This document shows positions 23,030 through 54,167 of a stretch of DNA of 64,000 bases, in pieces (within the stretch, counting starts at the first letter, position 1; each line of letters starts with the position of its first letter). The translations under genes were made by a program, and so were the position numbers. Source of the DNA: Bradyrhizobium liaoningense (lineage in GTDB: Bacteria > Pseudomonadota > Alphaproteobacteria > Rhizobiales > Xanthobacteraceae); assembly GCF_018130955.1 (NCBI RefSeq), contig NZ_JAFCJM010000014.1:62001-126000 (forward strand), in the 5' to 3' direction. A model generated the notes under the pieces. That model ran no database searches and was not told the origin of the DNA. It saw only the letters and a program-made list of their open reading frames with translations.

Positions 23030-23130
23030 GTCATTCCGGGGCGCGACGAAGTCGCGAGCCCGGAATCCATTTCACCACTTGTGCTGACGCCCGATGGATT
23101 CCGGGCTCGCGCTACGCGCCCCGGAATGAC
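23030..23130. repeat. Dispersed palindrome, GTCATTCCGGGG family (copy 1)
   Basis: The element starts GTCATTCCGGGGCGCG and ends GCGCCCCGGAATGAC. Each half folds as its own hairpin, and the two halves (CCCGGAATCCAT / ATGGATTCCGGG) are inverted to each other around a short spacer. It sits between the DppC-type and ATP-binding genes, within the operon. Confidence 0.9.
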
Positions 23131-41782: not shown

Positions 41783-41860
41783 GTCATTCCGGGGCGCCCG
41801 CAGGGCGAACCCGGAATCTCGAGATTCCGGGTTCGATGCTTCGCATCGCCCCGGAATGAC
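41783..41860. repeat. Dispersed palindrome, GTCATTCCGGGG family, short subtype (copy 4)
   Basis: Outer ends are GTCATTCCGGGGCG and CGCCCCGGAATGAC, but the centre is the AACCCGGAATCTC / GAGATTCCGGGTT variant with almost no spacer (CTCGAG). It lies between the alpha-E and transglutaminase genes. Confidence 0.9.
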
Positions 41861-42737: not shown

Positions 42738-42829
42738 GTCATTCCGGGGCGCGCCTAGCGCGAACCCGGAATCTCGCGCCACAATCTCCAGATTCCGGGT
42801 TCGATGCTATCGCATCGCCCCGGAATGAC
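42738..42829. repeat. Dispersed palindrome, GTCATTCCGGGG family, AACCC subtype (copy 5)
   Basis: Ends GTCATTCCGGGGCGCG and CCCCGGAATGAC, with centre AACCCGGAATCTCG / CAGATTCCGGGTT. It matches the subtype of copy 4 and lies between the transglutaminase and the convergent Sel1-repeat gene. Confidence 0.9.
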
Positions 42830-47759: not shown

Positions 47760-47865
47760 GTCATTCCGGGGCGCGCGAAGCGCGAGCCCGGAATCCATTT
47801 CCCCGCGTGTACTGCGGCCCGATGGATTCCGGGCTCGCGCCCAAGAGGGCGCGCCCCGGAATGAC
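47760..47865. repeat. Dispersed palindrome, GTCATTCCGGGG family (copy 6)
   Basis: A full element of the CCCGGAATCCAT / GATGGATTCCGGG subtype between the convergent nupC-type and rhomboid genes. Together with copy 7 it flanks the rhomboid gene. Confidence 0.9.
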
Positions 47866-47881
47866 GGCGGAGAGGTTCCGC

Positions 47882-49096
47882 TCACCCACACAACTTCGAC
47901 TTCTCCAATATGCGTTGCCCCTTGCCCAGCCTGGCACGGCAAGGATCGGCCGCCATGGCCTTCGCCTCGCTGTCCCGCTTCTGCGCGAGCAGCAACTCCG
48001 CCAGCACGGCTTGCGCCGCGGTGCGCGCCGGCCCGCCCGCCACATCGGAAGCGGCGAGCGACATGGTGGTTCGCAATTCCGTCTCGGCGGCACCAAAACT
48101 CTTTTGTTCAATGAAGAAGATCGCACGGAACAGATGAGCCCGCGGGTCCTTCGGGTAGCGGGTGACCAAATCGAGAGACCTGCTGGCCATCTCGCGCGCG
48201 TTCGCCGGCAGTTCCGACGCGCGGATATACTGCGCGGCGTCGGCCATGTAGGACGAATAATGACCGGCGGCGAAGCCGGCGCAGATCAGAGATCCGGCGA
48301 AGGCTGCGATCATCGTCATGCCGGCGCTCCGCGGCAGGCTGTCATAGGACCGGAAGGCGAGCCACGGCGTGATGGCAAGCGCGGCGCCGGCCAGCGCACC
48401 ACCTGCGTGAGCATAATAGTCGGTGTTGCCGGAGGCGCCAAAGGCAAGCGGCAGCAGCGCGGGAATACCGAAGAAGAGCGACGTCTTCAGTCGCGAGATC
48501 GTTTGATCGGCGTCCGCCTCGGGATCGAAGCTCGCGACGAACAGGGCTGCGATGAGCCCGGTGATGGCGCCGGACGCACCGACGCCGGGCATGCCCGGCG
48601 CATTGCCCAGCAGCGAGCCGGCCTCGCCGGCCAGCGCACTGGCAATGAAGATCAGCGAGAACAAGCCGCGGCCGATCAGAGGCTCCAGCCTGACGCCGAC
48701 GATGAACAGCGCAACGCAGTTGCCGATCAGGTGCGAGTTGCTGCCATGCAGAAGCGGCGCAAGTCCGATCCGCCACCACTCTCCCTTTCCAACCACCAGA
48801 TCGTAGCTGGACGCGCCATAAGCGATCAGCGAGCGGACATCGAGCGAGCCGTCCCGCCCAATGCTGATCGCCAGATTGCTTTGCAGCCCGTAGATCAGGA
48901 TCAGGAGAAAGATCAGGCCAATGGTGAGGAAGGGAATATCGGCCAGAAGCTTGTTTTCGCGAAACAGCGTCCCCTCTTCGGAGTCGGACTGATCGCTGTC
49001 GCGCACGACCGCTGGCGCGATCGGTGCTGCGACGGGTTGAAACGATACTCTTGAGGGAGGCGCCACGGCGCCGCGTCGGCCAAAGGTCGTCGCCAT
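47882..49096 (-). CDS. Rhomboid-family intramembrane serine protease
   Basis: This 404-residue protein has a cytoplasmic N-terminal tail (1-50), a rhomboid core and a soluble C-terminal helical part. Core marks are HGSNSHLIGN (conserved His/Asn), the catalytic GASG with Ser175, and His230 in YYAHAGG. The C-terminal 120 residues resemble TPR helices (RYPKDPRAHLFRAIFFIEQ). The start MATTFG at 49096 is preferred; an ATG at 49186 is the alternative. The substrate is unknown. Confidence 0.88.
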   Translation of the reverse strand: MATTFGRRGAVAPPSRVSFQPVAAPIAPAVVRDSDQSDSEEGTLFRENKLLADIPFLTIGLIFLLILIYGLQSNLAISIGRDGSLDVRSLIAYGASSYDLVVGKGEWWRIGLAPLLHGSNSHLIGNCVALFIVGVRLEPLIGRGLFSLIFIASALAGEAGSLLGNAPGMPGVGASGAITGLIAALFVASFDPEADADQTISRLKTSLFFGIPALLPLAFGASGNTDYYAHAGGALAGAALAITPWLAFRSYDSLPRSAGMTMIAAFAGSLICAGFAAGHYSSYMADAAQYIRASELPANAREMASRSLDLVTRYPKDPRAHLFRAIFFIEQKSFGAAETELRTTMSLAASDVAGGPARTAAQAVLAELLLAQKRDSEAKAMAADPCRARLGKGQRILEKSKLCG

Positions 49097-49255
49097 GAAA
49101 GCATGTCTCGCGTTTTTACAGCCCTGAGTTGACGCGAGAGGTATTTTCGACTGGTTAGCGCCCGCGCTGCGGGCGGCTGAAATCATTCGACCGGTAACTG
49201 CCCGGTTTCGCGGATCGGATGCATTCTAACGATCGGTGCTGGCGGGCCAACCACG

Positions 49256-49361
49256 GTCGTTCCGGGGCGCGCCACTTGACGCGAGCCCGGAATCCATTGG
49301 GCCTCAGCACGTATGGTGAAATGGATTCCGGGCTCGCCGCTTCGCGGCGCCCCGGAATGAC
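49256..49361. repeat. Dispersed palindrome, GTCATTCCGGGG family (copy 7)
   Basis: Runs from GTCGTTCCGGGGCGCG to CCCCGGAATGAC, with the central CCGGAATCCATT and AATGGATTCCGG. It lies between the rhomboid start and the cupin gene end. Confidence 0.9.
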
Positions 49362-51151: not shown

Positions 51152-52865
<1,714 letters not shown>

Positions 52866-52899
52866 GGTCCGACCGCTTAACGCGATCTACGAAATGCAG

Positions 52900-52928
52900 A
52901 ACCCCGGCAGCGATGCCGGGGTTTTTGT
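52900..52928 (+). terminator. groEL terminator
   Basis: Stem AACCCCGGCA / TGCCGGGGTT with a 4-base loop, followed by TTTGTTT, 35 bases after the groEL stop. This is a classical intrinsic terminator. Confidence 0.93.
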
Positions 52929-52942
52929 TTGGCCGTTCGCCA

Positions 52943-52979
52943 TTTCGGGCTCGGTGCTTCGCACCGCCCCGGAATGACG
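52943..52979. repeat. Half copy of the GTCATTCCGGGG family
   Basis: Only the right half is present: TTTCGGGCTCGGTGC through CCGCCCCGGAATGAC. It lies just after the groEL terminator and 25 bases before the split element at 53004. Confidence 0.75.
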
Positions 52980-53003
52980 GAGAGAGGAACCGCCGCCGCA
53001 CTC

Positions 53004-53403
53004 GTCATTCCGGGGCGCGCCTCTTGGCGCGAGCCCGGAATCCATAACCACGAACGCTAGTTGGATATCCCGCTGTAGAGATCGTCCCAATTCGGGTTCT
53101 GCTCCTCGATCAGCCGCGTCTTCCAATCCCGCCGCCACTTCTTCAGCTCTTTCTCGCGGGCAATGGCCGTCGCGGCGTCCTCGTAAATCTCGAACAGAAC
53201 CAGCTTGTCGACGCCATACTTCGTCGTGAATCCGAGCACCGCCTTCGTCTTATGTTCGTAAACACGGCGCACCAGATCACTGGTTCACGCCGATGTAGAG
53301 CGTGCCGTGCTTTTTGCTGGCGAGGATGTAGACGTAGTAGGCCATTCCTGCCGCCTGTGGTTATGGATTCCGGGAGCGCCGCTTCGCGACGCCCCGGAAT
53401 GAC
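53004..53403. mobile_element. Palindromic repeat split by a GIY-YIG nuclease gene
   Basis: The left part starts GTCATTCCGGGGCGCG at 53004 and ends CCCGGAATCCATAACCAC (53034-53051). The right part starts GTGGTTATGGATTCCGGG (53357-53374) and ends CCCCGGAATGAC at 53403. The two inner arms are an 18-base perfect inverted repeat. In the seven plain copies in this window the halves are joined by a short spacer; here that spacer is a complete small gene (GIY-YIG) of about 290 bases. The stop codon sits five bases past the left arm and the start codon 11 bases before the right arm. Confidence 0.7.
53057..53345 (-). pseudogene. GIY-YIG nuclease-family protein, frameshifted
   Basis: The start MAYYVYILASKKHGTLYIGV (ATG 53345) has the GIY-like YVYIL and YIG-like LYIGV strands. 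The frame then hits a stop after VNQ. The rest of the domain continues in the next frame: RRVYEHKTKAVLGFTTKYG, then a tail ending NWDDLYSGISN. Removing one T at 53284-53285 (plus strand) would restore SDLVRRVYEH. Full length would be about 95 residues, the usual size of stand-alone GIY-YIG proteins. It could be real decay or a base-calling error. Confidence 0.85.
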
Positions 53404-53420
53404 GGCGGAGAGGGACTCAT

Positions 53421-54167
53421 TCACTTCACCTTCATCCAGATCCGCTCGGGCCGGACGTCGTCAGTGCCGATGGAGAGGTAGATCCGCGTCACCTTGCCGA
53501 CGATGTTCTCCATCGGCACGTAGCCCACGGTCGACAGCACCCGGCTGTCGGTGGAGTTGTCCCTGTTGTCGCCGAGCACGAAGACATGGCCCGGCGGCAC
53601 GGTGTAGACGTTGGTGTTGTCGTAATAGGCGTTGTCGATGCAATCGAGAATCTCGTAGCTCGCGCCGTTCGGCAGCGTCTCCCACCAGCGCTTTGCCTTG
53701 GTGCCCGGCTCGATGCCGCAGGCATAGTCCTCCACGCCATCTTTCAGGCGCCGCCGCGTCACGGGCTTGTCGTTGATGAAGAGCTGGCCCTCTTTCATCT
53801 GGATCCGATCGTTCGGCAACCCCACCACGCGCTTGACGTAATCGACCTTGGTGTCGCTGGGCAGGCGAAACACGATCACGTCGCCGCGCAGGGGCTCCGA
53901 TCCGAAGATGCGCCCCGAAAACGGCGGCAGCCATCCCGGAAACGAGTAGCGGCTGTAGCCATAGGCATACTTTGCGGCGAACACGTCGTCGCCGATCAGC
54001 AGCGTCGGCACCATCGAGCTCGAGGGGATGCTGAAGGGCTGGTACAGAAAGAAGCGAACCAGGAACGGCGGCGACCACAGCACGGGGATCAGCAGGATCA
54101 GGATGACGACCGCCTTCCATTCCCCGGATTTGCGCGAGGGTTTTGCTGTGTCCTGAAGAGCGGTCAT
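53421..54167 (-). CDS. lepB: Signal peptidase I
   Basis: This 248-residue type I signal peptidase has one or two N-terminal hydrophobic stretches, the nucleophile region IPSSSMVPTLLIGD (Ser51), the general base Lys112 in DYVKRVVGLPND and the box E GDNRDNSTDSR. It cleaves export signals at the outer face of the inner membrane. The start MTALQDT at 54167 is preferred; the frame runs on upstream into sequence with no likeness. Confidence 0.93.
   Translation of the reverse strand: MTALQDTAKPSRKSGEWKAVVILILLIPVLWSPPFLVRFFLYQPFSIPSSSMVPTLLIGDDVFAAKYAYGYSRYSFPGWLPPFSGRIFGSEPLRGDVIVFRLPSDTKVDYVKRVVGLPNDRIQMKEGQLFINDKPVTRRRLKDGVEDYACGIEPGTKAKRWWETLPNGASYEILDCIDNAYYDNTNVYTVPPGHVFVLGDNRDNSTDSRVLSTVGYVPMENIVGKVTRIYLSIGTDDVRPERIWMKVK

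Follow-up and report, generated by a model that had tools for sequence, protein, structure and literature searches.

The gap between the genes that we take, from their translations, to be groEL and lepB in a 64,000-nucleotide stretch of Bradyrhizobium liaoningense DNA (the window, drawn from an 8.29-Mb genome in 158 contigs) contains a decayed unit in which a GIY-YIG nuclease gene lies between inverted CGTC-tagged REP hairpins. Genes of this nuclease family are associated with flanking REPs, the REP type matches the nuclease clade, and the units are polymorphic in their insertion and are exchanged within conserved surroundings. We consider it likely that the family consists of site-specific GIY-YIG nucleases, each paired with cognate REP targets.

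The nuclease gene and its two REPs

An earlier note on this DNA had described a GIY-YIG gene sitting between the two halves of a dispersed palindrome; that observation is confirmed and is more general than first seen, and the interpretation built on it is partly supported. The 18 innermost arm bases (CCCGGAATCCATAACCAC) are indeed perfectly complementary; the right arm is separated from the start codon by 11 bases, and the left arm from the stop codon by 5. The arms pair over an outer stretch of 15 nt (53003-53017 with 53390-53404, 100%) and an inner stretch of 23 nt (53029-53051 with 53357-53379, 91%). They are not halves of one palindrome, as had been thought, but two whole REP units, each arm being itself a complete hairpin; beyond its 8-bp stem the left one has a longer loop that is itself paired. 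Folded as DNA, the left REP reaches -18 kcal/mol (z -5.55) with its tag and tail unpaired, and the right REP -14.2 kcal/mol (z -3.0). The unit and the REP remnant beside it comprise the following features:

52935-52979, minus strand: lone degraded REP half adjoining the unit
53003-53051, plus strand: left CGTC-type REP, with tag CGTC, stem ATTCCGGG.../...CCCGGAAT and unpaired, gene-facing tail CCATAACCAC
53057-53345, minus strand: frameshifted pseudogene for a GIY-YIG nuclease, belonging to the REP-associated family
53357-53404, minus strand: right CGTC-type REP, inverted, with tag CGTC and its tail toward the gene

A frameshift after about 20 codons breaks the gene. Its C-terminal 71 amino acids match PF01541 (E=2.9e-6), and in domain matching only GIY-YIG scores above cut-off; no NCBIfam model scores above its cut-off for the nuclease, and Rfam gives no match at gathering score in 52860-53460. 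The GIY-YIG signature residues, among which the catalytic ones are well known, are invariant in 12 intact relatives. The nearest solved structures by sequence are the UPF0213 entries PDB 1zg2 and 1ywl (E 4e-11 and 4e-7). A phage origin of the nuclease was considered and rejected, with no match among 50,697 phage records. Plasmid records match in 33 of 72,556 cases, where 14 of the 15 among the matches listed exceed 600 kb and some resemble misfiled chromosomes. We note that two records named as Neisseria gonorrhoeae plasmids, NZ_CP119142.1 and NZ_CP119140.1 (~2.17 Mb), are of a size that suggests whole chromosomes.

REP flanking across the nuclease family

At least 58 of the 60 genus genomes sampled carry the family, often in multiple copies, as do 38 of 120 genomes sampled across the phylum. 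A scan of named genomes yielded 585 relatives; the best 80, which were kept, come from Alpha-, Beta-, Gamma- and Deltaproteobacteria, Omnitrophota, Parcubacteria, Flavobacteriaceae, Chloroflexi, Myxococcota and one archaeal MAG, where the taxon labels of MAGs may be wrong. The genus set consists of 40 of the 46 matches listed in single- or few-contig genomes, picked without sight of their flanks; the six omitted are one low-ranked match each in G004, G026, G052 and G055 and two of those in G054.

Inverted repeats between the 150-base flanks of each gene were compared with those at 300 gap-matched random positions. Such genes do not lie mostly outside palindromes: the flanking repeats outscore 99% of the random positions at 38 of the 40 genus loci, the other two being L057 (p=0.02) and L067 (p=0.89). 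The same is true of 61 of 79 cross-phylum loci (one of the 80 was dropped at a contig edge), or 67 when direct repeats are included, and the flanking repeat is absent in the remaining 12.

REPs were then called with a detector that looks, within 130 bases and in either orientation, for GTC, an 8-bp stem with at most one mismatch, a loop of 3-32 and a following C. Calling and the co-variation analysis below used 151 of 158 genes; the low-scoring L200, L202, L203, L204 and L205 were dropped, and two duplicates were merged (L061 kept as L178, L096 kept as L091). Thus the 39 genus genes are the 40 loci less L061, and the 82 cross-phylum genes are the 80 loci less L096, L145 and L168 plus five genes on L120, L121 and L155. 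With one detector and one family alignment underlying all counts, 27 of 39 genus genes have CGTC-type REPs on both sides, while 6 of 432 control ORFs do (Fisher 6e-29); the cross-phylum figures are 53 of 82 genes and 5 of 664 control ORFs (7e-54). The REP-gene-REP layout, proposed earlier to be an element, thus recurs far beyond chance in both sets. The phylum sample, which is without controls, has two-sided REPs at only 8 of 24 genes. The REP tails preferentially face the gene, with 92 facing and 35 pointing away upstream, and 95 and 44 downstream, among the 151 genes; control ORFs show no such bias. No REP is called on either side of 24 of the 151, and by eye the detector is blind to two REP types, the long-looped L050 type and the short-stemmed L070 type.

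Other GIY-YIG genes behave differently. Among the nine examined, six were counted and none has a called REP on either side. The three omitted are UvrC (L005), for which the locus does not extend across the whole gene, and the REP-flanked L200 and L202, which are taken for broken members of the nuclease family because they are matched in two pieces. The six include L203-L205, distant GIY-YIG genes outside the family that we guess to be of the UPF0213 kind, and none of these three is REP-flanked.

REP type and nuclease subclade

Inspected by eye, the REP types divide along the nuclease subclades, one type to each. Co-variation was assessed over the 151 genes in 11,107 pairs, after removal of 218 pairs whose outer context is shared. 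All 37 pairs with at least 80% protein identity reach the REP match score, and REPs are shared by 64.5% of the 155 pairs at 70-80% identity and by 0.4-1.0% of pairs in the three bins below 50%. Flank similarity follows nuclease identity with a Spearman rho of 0.31, and none of 300 label permutations gave a value as high. Paralogues of less than 60% identity in the same genome share their REP in 2 of 28 pairs, and genes of at least 70% identity in different genomes in 21 of 23.

These results bear on the idea that the gene is a passenger: intergenic gaps would accumulate REPs, and whatever small dispensable gene lies in such a gap would come to stand between them. In its favour, REPs are common in the window, and a REP is called on one or both sides of 14-19% of control ORFs. 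Two-sided REPs are, however, about 50 times (genus) and 86 times (cross-phylum) rarer at control ORFs, which are at least 150 aa long, lie at least 1 kb from the family gene and are not matched to the family genes in length; other GIY-YIG genes have none called, and in unrelated contexts the REP type still goes with the identity of the nuclease. We therefore reject the idea, on the two-sided REP counts and the clade matching, as very improbable.

REP number is a less uniform correlate. In tests that ignore relatedness and use identity limits for a "matching gene" that were set by hand, the strict motif of the window type has a median of 9 copies in the 12 genomes with the matching gene (flanking copies subtracted) and 1 in the other 48 (p=6e-6), and its count is not related to the presence of a non-matching gene (p=0.86). 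For a second REP type the corresponding counts are 8 (14 genomes) and 7.5 (46 genomes), with p=0.28 when flanking copies are subtracted and 0.06 when they are not. Since one type is positive and another negative, REP number is not taken as proof. Many genomes retain a REP type without its gene.

Plain REP dimers in the window

The 12-mer GTCATTCCGGGG, with at most one mismatch, occurs 16 times in the window, where shuffles predict 0.53, and the strict motif of one REP type has 10 copies genome-wide. The seven plain copies reported in the earlier note are all found, and the copy at 29409 does share the GTGGTTATGG edge with the gene-bearing unit. They had been regarded as one family, but their inner tails divide them into three REP types (typed by eye), the gene's own type accounting for one dimer, a sister type for four and a third type for two. 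The inverted dimers are listed here with their counterparts in the syntenic genome G046:

23030-23130: plain dimer, sister type with CATTTCACC tail; missing at the orthologous place in G046
29409-29505: plain inverted dimer of the gene's own type, tails CATACTCAC.../...GTGGTTATG and a 22-nt spacer
34867-34972: plain dimer, sister type; G046 has another REP family there (GTCATTGCGAGC...GCAATCC, by eye)
41783-41860: plain dimer, third type, with CTCGAGATTCC centre; common to the window and G046
42738-42829: plain dimer, third type; common to the window and G046, with the central spacer inverted
47760-47865: plain dimer, sister type; a single third-type dimer is in its place in G046
49256-49361: plain dimer, sister type, at the far edge of a 1.4-kb segment that G046 is without

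As single-stranded DNA, the dimers at 29409, 23030 and 41783 each fold into a long hairpin (-53.4 kcal/mol, z -12.4; -47 kcal/mol, z -10.0; and -35.9 kcal/mol, z -9.2, respectively). The REP places of the two genomes thus include some occupied in one only, one with a different REP family and one spacer-inverted dimer. In the last of these, at 42738-42829, colinear flanks enclose a spacer that is the reverse complement of that of G046, which means that the segment inside the arms has been flipped. We also note a rhomboid protease ORF (47882-49186, minus strand; PF01694 E=3.5e-25) between two REP dimers at 47760-49361; the 1.4-kb segment that bears it is missing from G046, which has one dimer of another REP type instead.

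By eye, some plain inverted dimers have tails that match the ends of gene-bearing units, which is what non-autonomous forms would show. The earlier suggestion that the plain copies are deleted, non-autonomous forms is borne out to that extent; it does not carry over directly to this gene, for six of the seven window copies are of the two sister types. Elsewhere, the sister and third REP types flank other nuclease subclades.

Allelic variation and exchange of the unit

Comparison from the groEL side took in 25 loci, of which 24 reach lepB. Alleles at this site include the gene-bearing unit and single or paired REPs without the gene. In the units of L065, L068 and L092 the gene belongs to another subclade and points the opposite way, L089 has an internally deleted gene inside its arms, and the intergenic region of L086 has no REP at all. 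L093 and L094 have a second, heavily deleted nuclease copy in tandem with a full-length one and a single REP between them, and in L082, L084 and L091 a further palindrome, GCCCGGATGGAGC...CAATCCGGG, occupies the groEL-lepB gap, where the nuclease is absent.

The window and G046 are 92-93% identical in nucleotide sequence around the site and 95% identical in LepB, whereas their nucleases at this same site are only 68.5% identical (C-terminal part, 73 residues) and lie in opposite orientations. Against G002 the relation is reversed, with 67% identity in LepB and 93.3% in the nuclease (C-terminal part, 75 residues). From this contrast we conclude that the cassette has been exchanged in one lineage or the other.

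A second place has the unit in G057 (L096), a plain dimer in L105 and nothing in the window (~61.64-61.67 kb), G046 or G005. On the right, homology resumes within 4 bases of the outer end of the unit; on the left it ends 57 bases short of the unit in the window and G046, at a diverged junction. No target-site duplication is recognised at this one comparable insertion, whose left junction is the diverged one.

Strict homing, in which the enzyme would cleave a plain dimer at the same place and repair from the arms would bring in the gene-bearing unit, would be a special form of the nuclease-REP pairing that we favour. Several of the observations suit it: arms that enclose the gene exactly are also found as plain dimers, one orthologous site has gene-bearing, REP-only and REP-less alleles, the cassette has been replaced within conserved flanks, and GIY-YIG is a known homing fold. 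Yet the unit also occurs where relatives have no REP (window, L209, L048), the group I intron endonuclease model scores far below its cut-off (16.4 against 56.05 bits), and gene copies are few and REPs many. We regard strict homing as rather unlikely, and a REP with a dedicated nuclease, in the manner of REP/RAYT, fits at least as well.

Relationship to known systems

The 2013 survey by Di Nocera et al. defines CGTC REPs by a 5' CGTC, TGTC or CCTC tag, an 8-9 bp stem starting with AT, a CCA tail and an occurrence as dimers, and gives the loop as 4-5 nt while noting that Bradyrhizobium CGTC-1 has loops of differing length (PMC3733652). There they are described as high in copy number and mostly dimeric, as frequent in Alphaproteobacteria, Bradyrhizobium among them, as known from five phyla and as including Neisseria dRS3 (PMC3733652). 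The same survey describes them as lacking associated transposase genes and raises the possibility that their mobile units have been lost (PMC3733652). By that description the window arms are CGTC REPs in their unpaired CGTC tag, AT-starting stem ATTCCGGG and tail CCATAACCAC, and the high copy number and dimers are matched by the 16 tag-stem matches and the seven dimers of the window; the difference is that a GIY-YIG gene family lies between them here, where the survey found no dedicated transposase (PMC3733652). Our search of open-licence PMC papers gave none that joins GIY-YIG to palindromic REP sequences or to CGTC REPs; GIY-YIG and repetitive extragenic palindromes came up together in a Moraxella survey, and the papers that mention GIY-YIG alongside RAYT deal, by their titles, with mitochondrial genomes and other subjects.

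RAYT is a HUH Y1 transposase, and the enzyme here is GIY-YIG and not Y1 HUH. REP/RAYT systems (REPtron, REPIN) share with the present one short palindromes, inverted dimers and few enzyme genes flanked by their own REP type; own-type, clade-matched REPs around the enzyme gene are what is found here as well. The REPs of those systems are GTAG-tagged according to the survey, and those here are CGTC-tagged (PMC3733652). The window unit is not a REP/RAYT member, since both the defining enzyme and the defining tag differ. It has inverted arms, as classical IS and MITE elements do, and the target-site duplication that would go with them is not recognised at the one comparable insertion.

A further parallel is Ssn, the subject of a 2025 study in Nature Communications that reportedly describes site-specific single-strand GIY-YIG nucleases and the NTS repeats of Neisseria, and is said to report that natural transformation is modulated. 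The Neisseria relative of the present family (57% identity), presumably Ssn itself, is flanked by CGTCATTCCCGC...GCGGGAATCC repeats (ATTCCC-N8-GGGAAT). These repeats fit CGTC-1/dRS3 as given in the survey (PMC3733652). Ssn and the present nucleases are both small one-domain GIY-YIG enzymes, and the Neisseria relative sits among repeats; the difference is that Bradyrhizobium genomes have several paralogues each with distinct REP types, REP-gene-REP units and exchange of these. The Ssn family and the REP-associated family are probably the same.

Two further relatives extend the range of contexts. In Azospirillum lipoferum 4B (L211, 2841-3500) the nuclease gene lies between REP dimers and splits the suf operon at sufB/sufC. 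In Sinorhizobium meliloti (L212, 2761-3480) the gene lies between CCTC-tagged hairpins, CCTCATCCCTGTG...CACAGGGAT, in agreement with the CCTC form that the survey gives for the CGTC tag (PMC3733652).

Another explanation is that REPs serve a single-strand nuclease as address tags in a host function, namely to limit or shape the uptake and recombination of incoming ssDNA, and that the REPs spread by other means. It draws on the position of the Neisseria relative among dRS3-type repeats and on the REP type that is equally common without its gene. The modulation of natural transformation that is reported for Ssn also points that way. Genes that are broken, lost and exchanged look more selfish than a conserved host function would, however, as do several paralogues per genome with REP types of their own, and plain dimers and gene units that share tails. 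We see the address-tag role as quite possible, if short of an even chance; its odds overlap with those of our preferred explanation because both include the nuclease-REP pairing and differ in the last step only.

A proposed mechanism for REP spread

Our preferred explanation remains a nuclease paired with its REPs, which would also act in their movement, and the best reading is that the system works like RAYT/REP with another enzyme. The intact relatives would be one-domain nucleases of about 95 residues that recognise their cognate REP. By analogy with the family and with what the Ssn study reportedly describes, the enzyme would cleave REPs and prefer single strands; its likeliest substrate would be the folded single-stranded REP hairpin, read through the CGTC tag and CCA tail and cut there. 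Such cuts might be repaired from other REP copies, by which REPs would be spread, swapped, inverted or deleted between intergenic places, and the whole REP-gene-REP unit may rarely be carried along by the same repair. Gene-less REP dimers would be non-autonomous forms served in trans. Hairpins could in this manner be spread and exchanged, through single-strand cuts and repair, by a nuclease that forms no covalent link to DNA, and we infer that the nuclease drives the spread and mobilisation of the REPs.

How CGTC REPs spread was left unexplained in the 2013 survey, according to which a dedicated transposase seems to be lacking (PMC3733652). We suggest tentatively, as a nearly even call, that the GIY-YIG family supplies the dedicated mobilising enzyme that had been missing for the CGTC REP superfamily, and that the two form a second and independently evolved system beside GTAG/RAYT. 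With a clade-matched nuclease gene between the repeats, a single small enzyme and short oligonucleotides would be enough to test this. The enzyme itself may not be new, since Ssn is probably of the same family, and the interesting part is the pairing of the nuclease with CGTC REPs; should the Ssn study already link such enzymes to CGTC REPs, what would remain new is that REPs are matched paralogue by paralogue and that units are exchanged. If the enzyme does move REPs, then bacterial systems of a REP plus an enzyme have evolved at least two times with unrelated chemistries, and the dRS3 repeats of Neisseria would be tied to the same system as the REPs of Bradyrhizobium.
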